From assembly GCA_030536655.1 (NCBI GenBank), contig JAUNPN010000002.1, forward strand, positions 1 to 63,650: a stretch of DNA of 63,650 nucleotides, read 5' to 3'. Position numbers and translations under genes: made by a program. Source of the stretch: a bacterium. GTDB taxonomy: Bacteria > Bacillota > Clostridia > UBA1381. Shown here one piece after another: positions 23,011 through 29,891 of this stretch (position 1 is the stretch's first letter; every line of letters starts with the position of its first letter). The notes beneath the pieces are model-generated. The model had not been told where the DNA came from. It saw only the letters and a list, made by a program, of their open reading frames with translations, and did not search any database.

Positions 23011-23262
23011 TTAAGAAATATCGGAATCAAACAGCAGGTTAATATCTACGTTAAGCAATTTGGAAATAACATATATTTCTTTATCGGTAGCAAGGCGGAG
23101 CTGTCCTTCTAATTTGGAGTAGCTTGTCGGATTCATGTCTATGCCGGAGGCTTGTATCTGAGCAATGAAATCTTTTTGCTTTATGCCAAGTGATTTTCTT
23201 ATTTTTTCGATGTTTTGTCCGACCATGTTTCGCTTTCCTATTTCAGTTGTTCTTGTTTTCAT
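23011..23262 (-). CDS. XRE-family helix-turn-helix regulator
   Basis: The 83-residue protein is a single HTH_XRE domain: NIEKIRKSLGIKQKDFIAQI, then NPTSYSKLEGQLRLATDKEI and ISKLLNVDINLLFD. AAGGAAGG lies 6 bases before the first ATG, so I keep the long start. Divergent promoters in the large palindrome at 23315-23359 suggest autoregulation. It is the closest regulator to the DGR, reading away from it, and could control the short transcripts between them. Confidence 0.85.
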   Translation of the reverse strand: MKTRTTEIGKRNMVGQNIEKIRKSLGIKQKDFIAQIQASGIDMNPTSYSKLEGQLRLATDKEIYVISKLLNVDINLLFDSDIS

Positions 23263-23307: not shown

Positions 23308-23359
23308 TTGACAAAATTCCGTAAAAGAATTATAATGTAATTAATTCTATTACGGAATT
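23308..23359 (+). promoter_or_regulatory. consensus promoter overlapped by a palindromic operator
   Basis: TTGACA (23308-23313), 17-base spacer, TATAAT (23331-23336). A palindrome with 10-bp perfect arms AATTCCGTAA (23315-23324) and TTACGGAATT (23350-23359), and inner AGAATTA/TAATTCT arms, spans the promoter. This is a typical repressor site for the adjacent XRE protein. The rightward transcript has no protein gene for over 450 bases. Confidence 0.7.
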
Positions 23360-23404
23360 ATAATTGCATTGGAAAACTTTTAATAAAATTTTCCGATTTT
23401 ATAC

Positions 23405-23433
23405 TTTACATTTCCGTTGGAATGTGGTATACT
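23405..23433 (+). promoter_or_regulatory. promoter of the structured RNA
   Basis: TTTACA (23405-23410), 17-base spacer and TATACT (23428-23433). The predicted start falls at the first base of a long closing stem. Confidence 0.6.
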
Positions 23434-23439
23434 ATAAGT

Positions 23440-23598
23440 GCTACACAATTATTAATAATCTCAGAATTCACGGAGTTTACGTTTGTTAAAAGACGTAGGC
23501 TTTGCTGTCATACTCCGTGAATGAGAATGAATTGTGTAGCAACAATTGCAAGCTGCGTTTTTATTGCGTAGCTGTGCAATGCGGCTGCGCATTTTTTA
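23440..23598 (+). ncRNA. highly structured candidate RNA upstream of the DGR
   Basis: From the predicted start the RNA folds into nested stems: GCTACACAATT (23440-23450) with AATTGTGTAGC (23530-23540), CTCA with TGAG, TTCACGGAGT (23467-23476) with ACTCCGTGAA (23512-23521), and an inner TACGT/ACGTA hairpin. A second domain (AGCTGCG/CGTAGCT, about 23550-23572) and a short terminator (AATGCG, GCTG loop, CGCATT, T6) follow. No coding frame exists. It matches no RNA class I know. Its link to the DGR is only positional. Confidence 0.6.
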
Positions 23599-23717
23599 TG
23601 CAAAGGTGTGGTTGGCATTAATAAGCGCCTTTTATAAAAGATAATAAATGAATATTATACTTTTTTGATAGTAAATATGTCAAAAATGGCTTAAAACGTG
23701 TCAATTCTGCAAAAGTG

Positions 23718-23746
23718 TTGACAAATTAGCAATAAATAGGTATAAT
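23718..23746 (+). promoter_or_regulatory. promoter of the DGR operon
   Basis: A perfect TTGACA (23718-23723), 17-base spacer and perfect TATAAT (23741-23746). It should drive avd, the template repeat and the reverse transcriptase, and possibly the target gene. Confidence 0.75.
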
Positions 23747-23794
23747 GTTTTTAAGTCTATAAGAGAAACATAAGGAGACCATTGTAGAGAAAGC

Positions 23795-24298
23795 ATGAGA
23801 AATGATTTAAATGTAATAAAAAAATCAAAAGACTTATCGGGTATGATTTTCGAAATAACAGAAAGGTCTCCGAAAAAATTTAGATTTACTCTTGTATCTA
23901 AAATGCAGAATTTGTCTCTTGAAGTTATAAGTGAGTTATACATGGCAAATGATACTTTTGTTGATATGAAGATAATATCTGATATGAATAAAACAATAGA
24001 CTTTACAAAAAATATTAAATCTTTTAAAAGTGAGGAAGAAAGGATATATTACAGAAATAAAATATTTGAATTAAAAATGACAAGAGCTGTAAAAACAGAA
24101 GAAAGAGTATCAAGAAGATTGGAACATAGTTATGCGGCTCTTACAAAAATTAAGGAATTAGACTGGCTTATTACATTGTCAGCGCAAATGCAATGTATAA
24201 CAACAAAGCAGCAAGAGCGGCTGGCTATGCTTGTTTATGAGGTTAGAAGCCTTATAGGCGGTTTTATAAAGAGTGATAAGCGCAGATTTAATTATTAG
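23795..24298 (+). CDS. avd: DGR accessory protein (Avd-like four-helix bundle)
   Basis: The 167-residue, helix-rich basic protein has the four-helix-bundle pattern of DGR accessory proteins (segments NLSLEVISELYMAND, EERIYYRNKIFELKMTRAVK, ALTKIKELDWLITLSAQMQC, QQERLAMLVYEVRSLIGGF). Avd forms a pentamer that binds the reverse transcriptase and template RNA. The gene ends 12 bases before the template repeat, the usual place. Its base composition is clearly more AT-rich than neighbouring core genes. Identification rests on fold pattern plus context, which together are strong. Confidence 0.85.
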   Translation: MRNDLNVIKKSKDLSGMIFEITERSPKKFRFTLVSKMQNLSLEVISELYMANDTFVDMKIISDMNKTIDFTKNIKSFKSEEERIYYRNKIFELKMTRAVKTEERVSRRLEHSYAALTKIKELDWLITLSAQMQCITTKQQERLAMLVYEVRSLIGGFIKSDKRRFNY

Positions 24299-24310
24299 GG
24301 ATAGGGTTAT

Positions 24311-24423
24311 GGCTCCGTTCTCCGAATTCCAACAACAATAGTAACAATGCCCGTGTTGTCAACTCCGGCGGCAATGTTAACAACAATAATGCAAACAACA
24401 ATAACGTTGGTGTTCGTCCCGCT
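24311..24423 (+). repeat. DGR template repeat (TR)
   Basis: This 113-base segment matches the variable repeat at 26488-26600 with ten mismatches, every one at an adenine of this copy (A to G five times, A to T four times, A to C once). It holds 34 adenines, mostly as AAC/AAT Asn codons if read in the target frame. The last 18 bases (GTTGGTGTTCGTCCCGCT) match exactly and correspond to the initiation-of-mutagenic-homing end. The first differing non-adenine base lies immediately after it (C at 24424, T at 26601). Confidence 0.96.
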
Positions 24424-24477
24424 CTCTTTTTTAGTGAGATATTGTATTTAAGTAAATACATTCAGTACAAAGAGAGG

Positions 24478-24520
24478 AAAGGAATCCTATTCCTGTCAGG
24501 TGCAGGAGAATTCCATTAGT
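24478..24520 (+). ncRNA. hairpin in the template RNA spacer
   Basis: GGAAT and ATTCC close an inner stem TCCTG/CAGGA (around loop TCAGGTG) about 60-95 bases after the template repeat. In studied DGRs the RNA directly 3' of the template is bound by the reverse transcriptase and Avd and primes cDNA synthesis, so this fold is a plausible part of the template RNA. The role is inference. Confidence 0.45.
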
Positions 24521-24639
24521 TTTTCTGTGTCTGATAAACATACGATGCCGGAAAATATATTGTGTAAGTAGATGTTTTGCATTGAACACAAAATATATAA
24601 TCAGATTATCATATATAAGAAAACGGCAGGTGATATATA

Positions 24640-24774
24640 ATTAAGACAATAAGAAATCAATTTAATGATGTATGCAGCTTCCAAAACTTGCTTGAAGCAC
24701 ACAGAAAATCACGTTTGGGAAAAGGTGCAAAAACAGAAGTGCTTTTATTTGAATATGATTTGATGTGTATATAG
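24640..24774 (+). pseudogene. out-of-frame N-terminus of the DGR reverse transcriptase
   Basis: This frame encodes the conserved opening of DGR reverse transcriptases (VCSFQNLLEAHRKSRLGKGA, then KTEVLLFEYDLMCI and TAG). It starts after an in-frame TGA at 24631, with only ATT (24640) or ATA (24637) available as start behind GGCAGGTG, where an ATG would be expected. The main frame begins at 24765 one phase away, so a single missing base (or two extra) near 24765 breaks the gene. It could be a sequencing error, a real lesion or a recoding site. Confidence 0.75.
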
Positions 24775-25682
24775 CAGGTTTGAAGACGGAGCTTGAAAAC
24801 AAAACATACGTTATAGGGAAATATAAATCTTTTAAGATTTATGAACCAAAGGAAAGGGATATTATGGCGCTGTCATATCGTGACAGAGTTGTACAGCGCT
24901 GTTTGTGTGACAAGGTTCTGGAACCATATCTTGACGCAAGACTTGATTATGACAATGCGGCATGCAGAAAGGGAAAAGGAACACATTTTGCGTTAGACAG
25001 ACTGAAATATTTTATGAAGCAGGGATATAATAAATGGGGGAACGGTTATTACATATTAAAATGCGACATAAGAAAATATTTTTATAATATCAATCATAAT
25101 ATACTAAAGAAAAATCTTTATCAATATATAGAGGATAAGAATATAATTTGGTTGCTGGATATAATTATAGACAGTACAGACGGTGACGTGGGTTTACCTA
25201 TAGGTAATATGACAAGTCAGTGGTTTGCTGTATTTTATCTTGACAAGTTGGATAAATATATCAGAGAAAAACTGAAAATAAAGTTATATTCAAGGTATAT
25301 GGATGATTTTATACTTATTCATAATGATAAAGAGTATTTAAAGCAATGTTTGAAAAAAATAAGGTTATTTTTACAGGAAATGTTAGGACTTGAATTAAAT
25401 GAAAAGACCCAGATTTTTCCTGTTAAGAATGGAGTTGACTACTTAGGATTTCATTCATATCTTACAGAAACGGGGAGGGTGATAAGGAAAATACGAAAAA
25501 AGTCAAAAGCCGCAATGAAGCGGAAAATTAAAAAATTTAATATCGGGTATTCTGCACAAGAAATATCATATGAAAGAATCAGCCAAAGCATATCATCATG
25601 GGTGGGGCACGCGAAGCATGGCAACACCTACTATCTTAGAAAAAATATAATGAAACGATTAAAGTTAAGGGTTTGTAAGTGA
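24765..25682 (+). CDS. DGR-type reverse transcriptase (main frame)
   Basis: The 305-residue frame (GTG start) carries the catalytic core: YKSFKIYEPKERDIMALSYR, RKGKGTHFALDRL, KCDIRKYFYNINH (catalytic Asp about 101), IGNMTSQWFAVFYL (146-159) and SRYMDDFILI (YMDD at 178-181), then the DYLGFHSYL thumb segment. The IGxxxSQ motif in place of QGxxxSP is diagnostic of DGR reverse transcriptases, which copy the template repeat with adenine-specific errors. About 44 N-terminal residues lie in another frame upstream, so the intact enzyme would be near 349 residues. The GTG lacks a ribosome site. The target gene starts 33 bases downstream. Confidence 0.93.
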   Translation: MYIAGLKTELENKTYVIGKYKSFKIYEPKERDIMALSYRDRVVQRCLCDKVLEPYLDARLDYDNAACRKGKGTHFALDRLKYFMKQGYNKWGNGYYILKCDIRKYFYNINHNILKKNLYQYIEDKNIIWLLDIIIDSTDGDVGLPIGNMTSQWFAVFYLDKLDKYIREKLKIKLYSRYMDDFILIHNDKEYLKQCLKKIRLFLQEMLGLELNEKTQIFPVKNGVDYLGFHSYLTETGRVIRKIRKKSKAAMKRKIKKFNIGYSAQEISYERISQSISSWVGHAKHGNTYYLRKNIMKRLKLRVCK

Positions 25683-25715
25683 AATATTTAAACAGATTCA
25701 GAGAAAGGACAGTGA

Positions 25716-28700
25716 ATGAAAATGAAGAAAAAACTAATGAGCATACTGATAACGATGTCAATGCTTGTGACATTTCTGCCGGTAATATCGGTCGGTGCGT
25801 CTGCTGATATTAATATCGGTGAATACCTGCAAATGGGTACATATTACGGCGAACCGATATTATGGCGGTGCGTGGATATTGACGAAAACGGTCCGCTTAT
25901 GCTGAGCGATAAGATTATCAGTATCAAGCCGTTTGACGCTGCGGGGGATAACACAAGCGGCTCTCATGGCAGGGGATATGGTGATGGTTCTTATCGTAAA
26001 AGTTGGGGTTCAAATTATTGGGCAGATTCAAATATGCGCTGCTGGCTCAATTCCGACGCGTCCGCCGGGAATGTGAACTGGACGTGCGGCAATCCTCCGA
26101 CAGAGGATAAGGTATATTATGGATATAATGAATATGCAGATGAAGCGGGATTTTTGAGTAATTTTTCTCTGGGGGAAAGAAATGCGATAAAGCCGGTTAC
26201 GCAGAAGTCGCTTTTGGATGGTTATGAGCATGATTCAAATACTAGAAACGAAAATTATCATAGATATGATTCATATATAGAAGATGTAATGCAGAATTAC
26301 GATACTGCTTATTCAGAGCAGGTAACGGATTCTGTTTTTTTATTGGATGTAAAGCAGGCGCACAGAGTATACAGTAACGGAAATATTCTCGGAGAGGATT
26401 ATTATATAGGTGAGCCGACTGCGCAGGCTGTGGAAAAATCGGAATATAAGAGCTCATCATTGGGTATTGGAAATAAATGGTATTACTGGCTCCGTTCTCC
26501 GAGTTCCAGCAACAATAGTAGCTATGCCCGTGTTGTCAACTCCGGCGGCTATGTTAACAACAGTAGTGCCTACTACAATAACGTTGGTGTTCGTCCCGCT
26601 TTCTATTTAAATCAGTTATCTGCGCGCTTCACCTCCGGCAACGGCACGCTTGCGGCTCCGTATACCGTTGAGGGCAGCGGCAGCTATATCCCCGAGGTTA
26701 CGCCTGCACCTACACCGGAACCCACACCCACACCTACGCCTACGCCAACCATAAAGCCATATTTATTTGAAGTTGAAAAGTACCGCGCTAACGAGGTTAT
26801 GACGGGTTTATCCGGAAAAACGCTTTTCTCAATGGAAAATACTTATTTTGAGCAAACTCCGGGCAAGGTGTTGGTTGAAGCAGGTAAGAAAAATGGGTTA
26901 GATAAGTTAACTGAATTCTGGCGTGGTATGAATGATGAGGTAGGCGCGGTAAATGATATATCAAAAATTGCAGACCTTGCCTTTGAAGAAAAGGATATGT
27001 ATGAAGCGATTATTTGGGCTATATTTGAGTCGGGAGCGGATTTTAAACTGATAAGCAATATAGATTCGACAATAGCTGATAATGGTAAAAAAGTATATGA
27101 TTTCGTATCCGGGCAGATGAAATCAATGTATAATCTGAGTGTTGCGGATAAAGGAATGTATAACGCTCTTTCGGATAAACAGAAGCAGGAATGGAAAAAG
27201 CTTGTTACCGATTCATTTGAGTCGGAATATTCTTCATTAAGCAAGAGTATAGATATAGCGGATAAGATGGACTTATTCTTTGACGTAGCAAAGGATATAG
27301 AAGATCTTATAAACAGATGCGCGGCGTACTATGAATTGTCGTCAATGCAGGATTCGTTGAAACAGGTATTAAAGGAAATGTATCAGCAGTGTCCGTCTGA
27401 TGAAATTGCTATGAAGGCTGCTCTGCTTAATTGCGTAACTGTTATGAATTCAAATGAAGCAGCTGTTTCGGCAGAGATAGCGGCGTCTGTTGCAGGCACT
27501 ACAGGTAAGCGTTTTGGAATGATAGGCATGTCGGCGATGTGGTCAAGTGTGATGACAGGGGTCAAAAATGCTCACCCGGCTGTGGCAGTGTTTATGATGG
27601 CATATAAAAGCGGAACGTTTGTAAGCAATGCATTGTTTAACACTGATGCAATTGAAGAAGCATATCATAAGCTTGATGCTGTAATAAAAGTAGAGAATGT
27701 CGCACGCAGTGCATATTACAAGCTTAAAAAGCAATACATCAATGATGAGACAGAAACAAATGCGGCACATTATAACAGCGCTATTGATATTATGTTTAAT
27801 GCCAAAGATTATGACTGTGATACATCAATATCCTTTATAGATTCAGTAAGCAGTTCTGCGGCAGGAGCAGTAATCTCTTTATTGGGAGATAAAACAGCGG
27901 AAGAGAGAAAAAAATCAGTGAAGTCTATTCAGGATTCATCATATTCGATGTATGAGAGTATTCTTACAAGTTGGGTGTATCAGCTGGAAGAAGATGATAA
28001 GCAAACATATGAACAATATAAGTATGTTTTAGAGGAATCTGAAAAACGTATAAATAAGCGTTATCATATAGCGTGTCCTGTAGACGTATATGTATATGAT
28101 AAAATCGGACAAGAGGTTGCTTCTGTAGTAAACAACAAAACCTCGGTAAATGACAATTCAGATATCGTTATAACAGCATATAACGATGAAAAATTTGTTT
28201 ATCTTGATGATGACAAATATAGTCTGGAGTATAAAGCTACAGGCAACGGTACTATGGATATTACAATAGATGAATATAACGAAAAAGGAAAGACTGAAAG
28301 AACTGTAGGTTTTGATGATTTGTTAATTAGCAGAGGAGATGTATACAAATCGGAGGACAGCGGGGAGTATACGCTGACTTTGGACGGCAGCACAGTTGAG
28401 CCGGATTATGACACTGCGAAAAATAAAGCCGATGCAGTAAAAAAGCTGCTCGAAACAGACAGTGATATATCCACGGAAAAAATCACGAATGAATCAAATA
28501 ATGGTAAAATTGATCAAAACGATGATAATGTTCATCAAAATGATGATACAACGTCATTGAATCAATATCAAAAAGCAGCGATAAATTATGTTACGGAAAA
28601 CGCAATAATGACTGGTTACGATGACGGAACAATCAAACCATATAACAGCATAACGCGAGCAGAGTTTGCTGCTATGATGTGCCGACGCTTCGGATTTACG

Positions 28701-29891
28701 ACAAGCGAAAAATCCCTGTTTGATGATGTTCAGGATACTCATTGGGCTTCCTCATACATTCGTGCGTGTACTGATAAAGGAGCGATTAATGGAATAGGTG
28801 ATAATAAATTCAATCCGGACGGAATGGTTACATTTGAACAAGCAGTAAAAATTATAACAGTTCTCTGTGGCTATGAAAAGCAGGTCAGCATATATGAAAT
28901 GGGCGGATACCCGGATGGATATGTTTATGCGGCTGAGGAATATCATTTAACAGATGATATGACCGTTACTGTAAACGGACAAAATCTACCGAGAATTGAT
29001 GTTGCAATGCTCATATATAATTGCAGAAACAAACCGGAGGAAATATTAGGTGAAAACATTATAAAAAAATATGACTATATCGGCTGGTTTAATTATAATC
29101 ATCATCAGTTTGCTGAAATGGAGAAAGATGAAAAATGGGGAGTCATTGACTCCAAAGGGAACGAAGTGATAAGTCCTAAATATGATTATGTCGACATTCG
29201 CGGTGATGGAGAATATATCATAGTGAACAACGGAAAGAAAAGCGCACTCGTTGACGTGAACGGCAATATTGTGCTCGATTTTGACTATAGTATAATAGAC
29301 TTTTGTGATAACAATAAATATTTGACGGTTTGCTCAGCAGGAACTGGGAAAGACAGAACATGGGCATTAATAGATTATGAAGGCAGAGAAATAATTCCGG
29401 TTGGCAAGTATACAGAAATGAATTATTGCAGCGACAATTATATTGTTGTAGAATACGATGATGAATACGGTGTTATTGATATTAATGAAAATCAAGTTGT
29501 GCCATTTGATTTCAATTATATATTTCCGTTTTATGAGCAGAGAATGCTTCATGTAAGTGATGATGACGGAATGTATGGTATTGCAGATCTTAAGGGAAAT
29601 ATAATTATTGATACAGAATATGATGACATAGAAGGAGGTCGAGTATTGCCTGTATTTGCTCAAAAAAATGACAAATGGGGTAAGGTAGACAGAAATAATG
29701 AAATTGTAGTAGGTTTCAATTACGATTATGACCACGTTTATTCATATATTGATGGAGCTGGAAAATACTCCATCGCAGAAAAAAACGATGTTTTTTGTAT
29801 TATTGACAGTAACTTAGAAATGCTGACAGGGTATGACTTTGATGACATTGAGGATGCGGTCGATTATATACTTAAGAATCGTAATATGTAA
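25716..29891 (+). CDS. DGR target: secreted DUF6273-like, SLH and WG-repeat protein
   Basis: The 1391-residue protein has a signal peptide (1-30, MKMKKKLMSILITMSMLVTF), a DUF6273-like C-type-lectin-related domain (about 31-305, GEYLQMGTYYGEPILWRCVD) ending in the variable repeat (258-295, YYWLRSP through GVRPAFYLN), a Pro/Thr linker (about 328-349), a largely helical region (350-900), SLH modules (about 948-1075, with DDGTIKPYNSITRAEFAAMM) that anchor to the cell wall, and WG repeats (about 1137-1385, KWGVIDSKGNEVISPKYDY). GAGAAAGGAC precedes the ATG. The variable repeat is far from the C-terminus, unlike most DGR targets. Ligand unknown. Confidence 0.93.
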   Translation: MKMKKKLMSILITMSMLVTFLPVISVGASADINIGEYLQMGTYYGEPILWRCVDIDENGPLMLSDKIISIKPFDAAGDNTSGSHGRGYGDGSYRKSWGSNYWADSNMRCWLNSDASAGNVNWTCGNPPTEDKVYYGYNEYADEAGFLSNFSLGERNAIKPVTQKSLLDGYEHDSNTRNENYHRYDSYIEDVMQNYDTAYSEQVTDSVFLLDVKQAHRVYSNGNILGEDYYIGEPTAQAVEKSEYKSSSLGIGNKWYYWLRSPSSSNNSSYARVVNSGGYVNNSSAYYNNVGVRPAFYLNQLSARFTSGNGTLAAPYTVEGSGSYIPEVTPAPTPEPTPTPTPTPTIKPYLFEVEKYRANEVMTGLSGKTLFSMENTYFEQTPGKVLVEAGKKNGLDKLTEFWRGMNDEVGAVNDISKIADLAFEEKDMYEAIIWAIFESGADFKLISNIDSTIADNGKKVYDFVSGQMKSMYNLSVADKGMYNALSDKQKQEWKKLVTDSFESEYSSLSKSIDIADKMDLFFDVAKDIEDLINRCAAYYELSSMQDSLKQVLKEMYQQCPSDEIAMKAALLNCVTVMNSNEAAVSAEIAASVAGTTGKRFGMIGMSAMWSSVMTGVKNAHPAVAVFMMAYKSGTFVSNALFNTDAIEEAYHKLDAVIKVENVARSAYYKLKKQYINDETETNAAHYNSAIDIMFNAKDYDCDTSISFIDSVSSSAAGAVISLLGDKTAEERKKSVKSIQDSSYSMYESILTSWVYQLEEDDKQTYEQYKYVLEESEKRINKRYHIACPVDVYVYDKIGQEVASVVNNKTSVNDNSDIVITAYNDEKFVYLDDDKYSLEYKATGNGTMDITIDEYNEKGKTERTVGFDDLLISRGDVYKSEDSGEYTLTLDGSTVEPDYDTAKNKADAVKKLLETDSDISTEKITNESNNGKIDQNDDNVHQNDDTTSLNQYQKAAINYVTENAIMTGYDDGTIKPYNSITRAEFAAMMCRRFGFTTSEKSLFDDVQDTHWASSYIRACTDKGAINGIGDNKFNPDGMVTFEQAVKIITVLCGYEKQVSIYEMGGYPDGYVYAAEEYHLTDDMTVTVNGQNLPRIDVAMLIYNCRNKPEEILGENIIKKYDYIGWFNYNHHQFAEMEKDEKWGVIDSKGNEVISPKYDYVDIRGDGEYIIVNNGKKSALVDVNGNIVLDFDYSIIDFCDNNKYLTVCSAGTGKDRTWALIDYEGREIIPVGKYTEMNYCSDNYIVVEYDDEYGVIDINENQVVPFDFNYIFPFYEQRMLHVSDDDGMYGIADLKGNIIIDTEYDDIEGGRVLPVFAQKNDKWGKVDRNNEIVVGFNYDYDHVYSYIDGAGKYSIAEKNDVFCIIDSNLEMLTGYDFDDIEDAVDYILKNRNM
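26488..26600 (+). repeat. DGR variable repeat (VR)
   Basis: This copy of the template repeat lies in the target gene. Relative to the template, Asn codons became Ser at five places and Tyr at four, and one GCA became GCC (silent). Bases that are not adenine in the template are unchanged over all 113 positions. The encoded segment is RSPSSSNNSSYARVVNSGGY followed by VNNSSAYYNNVGVRPA. The substitutions fall in one exposed-loop-like region of the DUF6273-like domain. Confidence 0.96.

Follow-up and report, generated by a model that had tools for sequence, protein, structure and literature searches.

What does a bacterial locus diversify when its reverse transcriptase (RT) gene is one base short, a variable repeat (VR) lies deep inside an S-layer protein and its two targets are unlinked? 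This unusual set-up is found in the 63,650-nucleotide stretch analysed here (the window), which makes up the entire contig C122 of a 3.49-Mb genome in 266 contigs. The host is a gut-type Clostridia bacterium, and its nearest named relatives are the Lapin-series metagenome-assembled genomes (MAGs), labelled uncultured Clostridia. A preliminary description of the window had placed a diversity-generating retroelement (DGR) there, and its order of elements was borne out: an Avd-like open reading frame (ORF), a template repeat (TR), an RT with the motifs IGNMTSQ and YMDD, and a target gene, at the places given (Table 1). We conclude that the element is a genuine, recently active, cell-encoded DGR; whether it is active at present is uncertain. 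The type of system is known, and the new points are its internal VRs, a targeted domain about 40% identical to the N-domain of an IgA peptidase, the lack of a BPP-1-type stem-loop after either VR and the broken RT frame.

The TR and the VR of the adjacent target (VR1) align without gaps over 114 bases, at an offset of 2177. Ten positions differ, all of them template adenines (5 A>G, 4 A>T, 1 A>C), exactly as the preliminary description had claimed. That description did not notice a second, unlinked VR (VR2), the one further true match to the TR in a search across the genome, which lies on contig C180. Of the 114 positions of VR2, 18 depart from the TR; every one is a template adenine, and the substitutions are split roughly equally among the three other bases (7, 6 and 5). 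Pooled over both VRs, 28 of 28 differences fall on template adenines (chance of ~1e-17), and neither core has a non-adenine difference over its 114 bases. Relative to the TR, nine residues are altered in VR1 and 14 in VR2; within the TR, 33 of the 34 adenines occupy codon positions 1 and 2 of the VR frame. On sequence grounds, adenine-specific mutagenic retrohoming by a DGR is strongly supported. Ordinary duplicated coding repeats, with an adenine bias born of composition or selection, would draw some credit from a TR that is 30% adenine, but they would have to produce the pooled count by chance, and the TR is non-coding, lies between avd and the RT gene, and is matched on a separate contig by VR2. 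We give this explanation almost no chance, and the second VR effectively refutes it. In principle, C180 may have been binned wrongly; VR2 nevertheless matches the TR at every non-adenine core position. Other DUF6273 proteins of the genome, on C165 and C160, were rejected as further VR carriers, having no TR homology. The inventory of the genome is one TR, one RT and two VRs.

No RVT_1 match other than the RT core occurs in the genome, and the best match of this core in the PDB is the DGR RT of BPP-1 (8ub7, E 4.6e-39), aligned from 8ub7 residue 47. A tree of 42 RTs, constructed without retron RTs, upheld the earlier assignment to DGRs with a 100/100 split from the RTs of group II introns, an identity that this split rejects. 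Retron profiles matched the RT weakly, below their cut-off. Inside the DGR group that contains BPP-1, the RT groups with those of two rabbit-gut Clostridia MAGs, Lapin-008 bin58 (G032; DGR locus L118) and Lapin-003-2 bin74 (L119). The Avd ORF matches PHROG 3206, 'Avd protein of DGR' (E 1.4e-17), and the bAvd and NCBIfam Avd profiles below their cut-offs. Its AlphaFold2 (AF2) model (pLDDT 90.9) aligns to the BPP-1 Avd chains of 4dwl and 8ub7, with TM-scores to these target structures of up to 0.85–0.86. Since generic S23-type four-helix proteins score slightly above the solved Avd chains against this model, the Avd call rests on PHROG 3206 and on position as much as on fold. The protein is about 40 residues longer than most Avd proteins, owing to a helical insertion that it has in common only with L118 and L119.

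A structured RNA match, to Rfam RT-14 (RF02921), starts at the end of the TR. L118, L119 and L139 have weaker RT-14 matches immediately 3′ of the TR, and six more RT-14 loci occur among relatives (five genomes); in five of the six (L239, L240, L242, L243 and L244) an adenine-biased repeat pair ends just upstream. The sixth, L241, has neither an RT nor such a repeat pair nearby. In a post-TR alignment of 16 DGRs, 10 of 15 pairs show double changes, giving 39 double-change cells; shuffles gave 12.1, and sliding the partners gave no more than 15. Judged from these alignments, a conserved, covarying RNA follows the TR, like the spacer RNA of BPP-1 (PMC12875486). The window agrees with RF02921 in scoring above the gathering threshold directly after the TR, whereas the Rfam entry is classed as an sRNA. 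A literature search that left most subscription journals and the original RT-14 report outside its reach found nothing linking the name RT-14 to DGRs; our alignments tie this sRNA to the DGR RNA scaffold.

Target 1 comprises a signal peptide, a DUF6273 head, a proline-rich linker, SLH domains and WG repeats, the signal peptide and linker being read from the sequence. Target 2, on C180, is a protein of 1451 aa with a TTG start, encoded between pnp-like and valS-like genes; it carries DUF6273 and a CARDB-like stretch. The DUF6273 model of target 1 superposes on the Thomasclavelia ramosa IgA peptidase structure 9qa6 (TM-score 0.85, 40% identity), which was also found by the DUF6273 sequence profile (E 2.2e-86). 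The N-domain of this peptidase is a decorated C-type-lectin-like domain with zinc bound on D78, H90 and C126 (PMC12237041). In our alignment (A2), D49, H59 and C99 do not vary among 17 homologues and, by numbering, probably correspond in position to these zinc ligands. The VR-bearing domain is thus C-type-lectin-like and homologous to a solved domain of this class. The hypermutated domain is thereby linked to the structure of a gut IgA peptidase DUF6273, which provides a structural model for the variable face in a host-associated bacterium. DUF6273 is already known as a DGR target (PMC10743442, PMC11792537); with the same limit on subscription journals, we found no literature joining DGRs with S-layer homology, or with DUF6273 and IgA. 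Relatives also encode proteins with many tandem DUF6273 domains (G069:C9, G103:C40, G003:C13 and G029:C21), among them a 4193-aa reading frame that holds about nine of these domains.

We consider it very probable that this is a cell-encoded DGR in which an adenine-misreading RT uses a single template to vary the lectin-like heads of two secreted proteins. The parts apparent in the sequence (a TR, two VRs with adenine-only differences, a DGR-type RT core, the Avd fold, a scaffold RNA and a lectin-like domain) would work as in the BPP-1 system, on which we model our account of ribonucleoprotein assembly, of priming of the cDNA within the spacer RNA and of VR replacement. A single transcript would carry avd, the TR and the structured RNA, and the RT-14 RNA would keep both proteins, RT and Avd, bound to the template. 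The RT would then copy the TR, misreading adenines, and the cDNA would replace the matching DNA in two targets, at VR1 next to the cassette and at VR2 elsewhere in the chromosome. In both of these large secreted proteins, the VR would code for one face of the DUF6273 head, a zinc-bearing C-type-lectin-like domain. We infer retrohoming into both loci and a role in binding. To judge from its domain content, target 1 may be anchored to the cell wall by its SLH domains and display its variable head there. A likely use would be fast change of surface binding, whether to host glycans or glycoproteins, to other cells or to phage.

The position of the VRs bears on how retrohoming would be directed. 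Some 1,090 residues follow VR1, some 1,150 follow VR2 and 1,376 follow the VR of L118, compared with a median of 12–15 in related DGRs (70-base-window scans). A large survey found VRs to be near-universally C-terminal and attributed this to DNA signals of the target site that lie beyond the coding region; remote targets escape DGR surveys of metagenome contigs (PMC8144416). Several observations weigh against the account given above. Downstream of both VRs, up to a distance of 160 bases, no stem-loop of at least 5 pairs was detected by a scan that recovers the 8-bp GAAA hairpin of BPP-1 as a control; the same scan returned no hairpin after the VR of L118. TR/VR identity ends at 24423, beyond which VR1 and VR2 carry identical differences from the TR. 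These differences fit a border between IMH and IMH* (initiation of mutagenic homing), and equally fit conservation of the encoded PAFYLN; this motif is present in most homologues, including non-DGR ones, and the changes past 24423 could therefore be protein conservation. The N-domain of the IgA peptidase is dispensable for IgA cleavage (PMC12237041, PMC12402451), and an IgA-binding role is consequently not implied. Finally, of 157 DGR RT loci whose N-terminus could be recognised, this is the only one that has it out of frame. With its two targets, deep intragenic VRs and lack of a stem-loop, the locus makes the needed target signals testable.

The frame break qualifies the preliminary description, which had called the DGR complete. 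All elements are indeed present, but completeness is unsupported, as the N-terminal part of the RT (24640–24774) is out of frame with the core (24765–25682), a feature that had gone unnoticed. The first codon of the N-terminal frame is an ATT preceded by AGGTGA, and the frame ends at the TAG at 24772–24774; it encodes an otherwise normal DGR RT N-terminus, with a one-base gap relative to L118 near 24767–24772. L118 and L119 both have this N-terminus in frame. Neither VR has a non-adenine difference over 114 bases, so retrohoming must be recent; the break is therefore of very recent origin, an error of the assembly, or circumvented during translation. A fault of assembly or sequencing in an ordinary, intact RT gene is quite possible, if short of an even chance. 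The genome is a 266-contig draft that looks like a metagenome bin, the adenine-only differences imply recent activity, and the N-terminal protein is otherwise well kept (25 of 42 residues identical to L118), although single-base gaps outside homopolymers are uncommon in short-read assemblies. That the frameshift is real and the element simply dead, its VRs a frozen record of past activity, is conceivable but on balance doubtful. The uniqueness of the break among the DGR RT loci and its location outside a homopolymer fit inactivation. Any death would have to be very recent, given VR cores free of non-adenine differences and codon-position differences from L118 of 14/14/30 in the N-terminal part, a third-position excess of the purifying kind, and an assembly fault may explain the break instead.

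An improbable further explanation is an RT made in two steps, with a non-AUG start for the N-terminus and a re-start at GTG 24765 or a frameshift, which would keep the mutagenic enzyme scarce. The GTG...TAG start/stop overlap and the purifying pattern of the N-terminal part speak for it, as does the lack of ATG, GTG or TTG at the RT start here and in L118, L129 and L133, with suitably spaced Shine-Dalgarno (SD)-like sequences. No ATG, GTG or TTG opens the N-terminal frame in the window, where the start position holds ATT (24640), compared with ATC in L118 (6863), ATA in L119 (5914) and TTG in L139; L119 has a GTG three codons before its ATA. The RT genes of L129 and L133 likewise lack a usual start and have SD-like sequences at the proper distance. 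Against a two-step RT, no classic –1 slippery heptamer was seen by eye in 24750–24775, and the frame change is not conserved, L118 and L119 being in frame. We would also rate as unlikely a scheme that combines RT scarcity, through an AUU/AUC/AUA start whose position is conserved among the closest relatives and the GTG/TAG overlap, with one template diversifying two unlinked IgA-peptidase-related lectin-like heads by means of intragenic target signals and no stem-loop.

The cell-encoded DGR proposed here resembles that of BPP-1 (mtd-avd-TR-brt) in RT type, in Avd, in a TR directly after avd and in a structured RNA spacer between TR and RT (PMC12875486), as well as in adenine-specific TR/VR differences and a C-type-lectin-type target. 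Unlike in BPP-1, the element is cellular rather than phage-borne, the target lies downstream of the RT, the VR is inside the protein with no stem-loop after it, two unlinked VRs are present and Avd is longer. The tentaclins and the DGRs of Faecalibacterium prophages (PMC10743442, PMC11792537) likewise have a DUF6273 target with the VR at the C-terminal end of the domain, and in tentaclins the lectin domain is also N-terminal; these are, however, proteins of phages, with Ig domains or tail parts, whereas the targets here are host proteins, one with SLH domains and WG repeats and the other with CARDB-like repeats. The T. ramosa N-domain (9qa6) has a homologous DUF6273 and matching zinc-ligand positions, but is fused to an M64 peptidase, with no DGR link reported (PMC12237041, PMC12402451). 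Closest are L118 and L119, with RTs 71–73% identical, a long Avd and RT-14-like RNA in both. L118 also has the same gene order, an internal VR, a non-AUG RT start and an adenine-biased TR/VR pair (15 of 16 mismatches, 70-base window). Only one VR was found in its genome, G032, and, unlike the window, L118 adjoins a tyrosine-recombinase-like gene. This gene (L029:10419-11492) lies beside avd and hints that the cassette can be mobile.

Table 1. Positions of the DGR components and associated features (window coordinates unless a contig is named)
Feature	Position	Strand	Basis or remark
Promoter-like site TTGACA-17-TATAAT upstream of avd	23718..23746	+	12/12 consensus match; putative function
avd, 167 aa, with ~40-residue helical insertion	23795..24298	+	PHROG 3206, AF2 model, position
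TR	24310..24423	+	16 AAY codons in VR frame; 5′ and 3′ ends A-free
Structured DGR RNA scaffold, Rfam RT-14 (RF02921)	24422..24598	+	59.5 bits against gathering score 48.1, E 1.9e-6
RT N-terminal part, ~43 residues, frame differs from core	24640..24774	+	N-terminal profile 39.4 bits, out of frame
Region where both RT frames overlap (GTG 24765 / TAG 24772), frame-change site	24765..24774	+	one base short compared with relatives
DGR RT core, 305 aa, GTG start, IGNMTSQ and YMDD	24765..25682	+	PDB match, tree
Target 1, 1391 aa	25716..29891	+	Pfam DUF6273, SLH, WG; ORF
DUF6273 domain, C-type-lectin-like, modelled stretch	25791..26690	+	AF2 pLDDT 89.7; PDB 9qa6; profile
VR1	26487..26600	+	target 1 residues 258-295; ~1,090 residues before C-terminus
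SLH domain (best stretch), cell-surface anchor	28719..28844	+	PF00395 E 4.7e-18, residues 1002-1043
WG repeat (best stretch)	29136..29237	+	PF14903 E 1.1e-14, residues 1141-1174
VR2	contig C180:30625-30738		TR search of same genome

The cassette is flanked by host genes, a SigF-type operon and nadK-argR-recN, with no phage genes. A prophage origin was rejected on the basis of these neighbours and of the best phage match to the RT, which is only 54% identical. The genes upstream of nadK vary between the genomes of relatives (empty-site comparison, short loci only). The 'perfect promoter' of the preliminary description held up as a sequence, scoring 12/12 against the consensus at 23718–23746. 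It is one of three such 12/12 sites within 23308–23746, and as the number of looser sites equals the chance expectation, its function as a promoter is putative. Just upstream of the cassette, a small XRE-type helix-turn-helix gene on the minus strand (23011–23262) is a possible regulator. A putative small RNA at 23440–23600, which matched no Rfam family, is strongly structured (fold z –7.2) and occurs in three genome copies that are 79–82% identical; it is accompanied by a promoter-like site at 23405–23433 and a terminator-like hairpin at 23565–23593.

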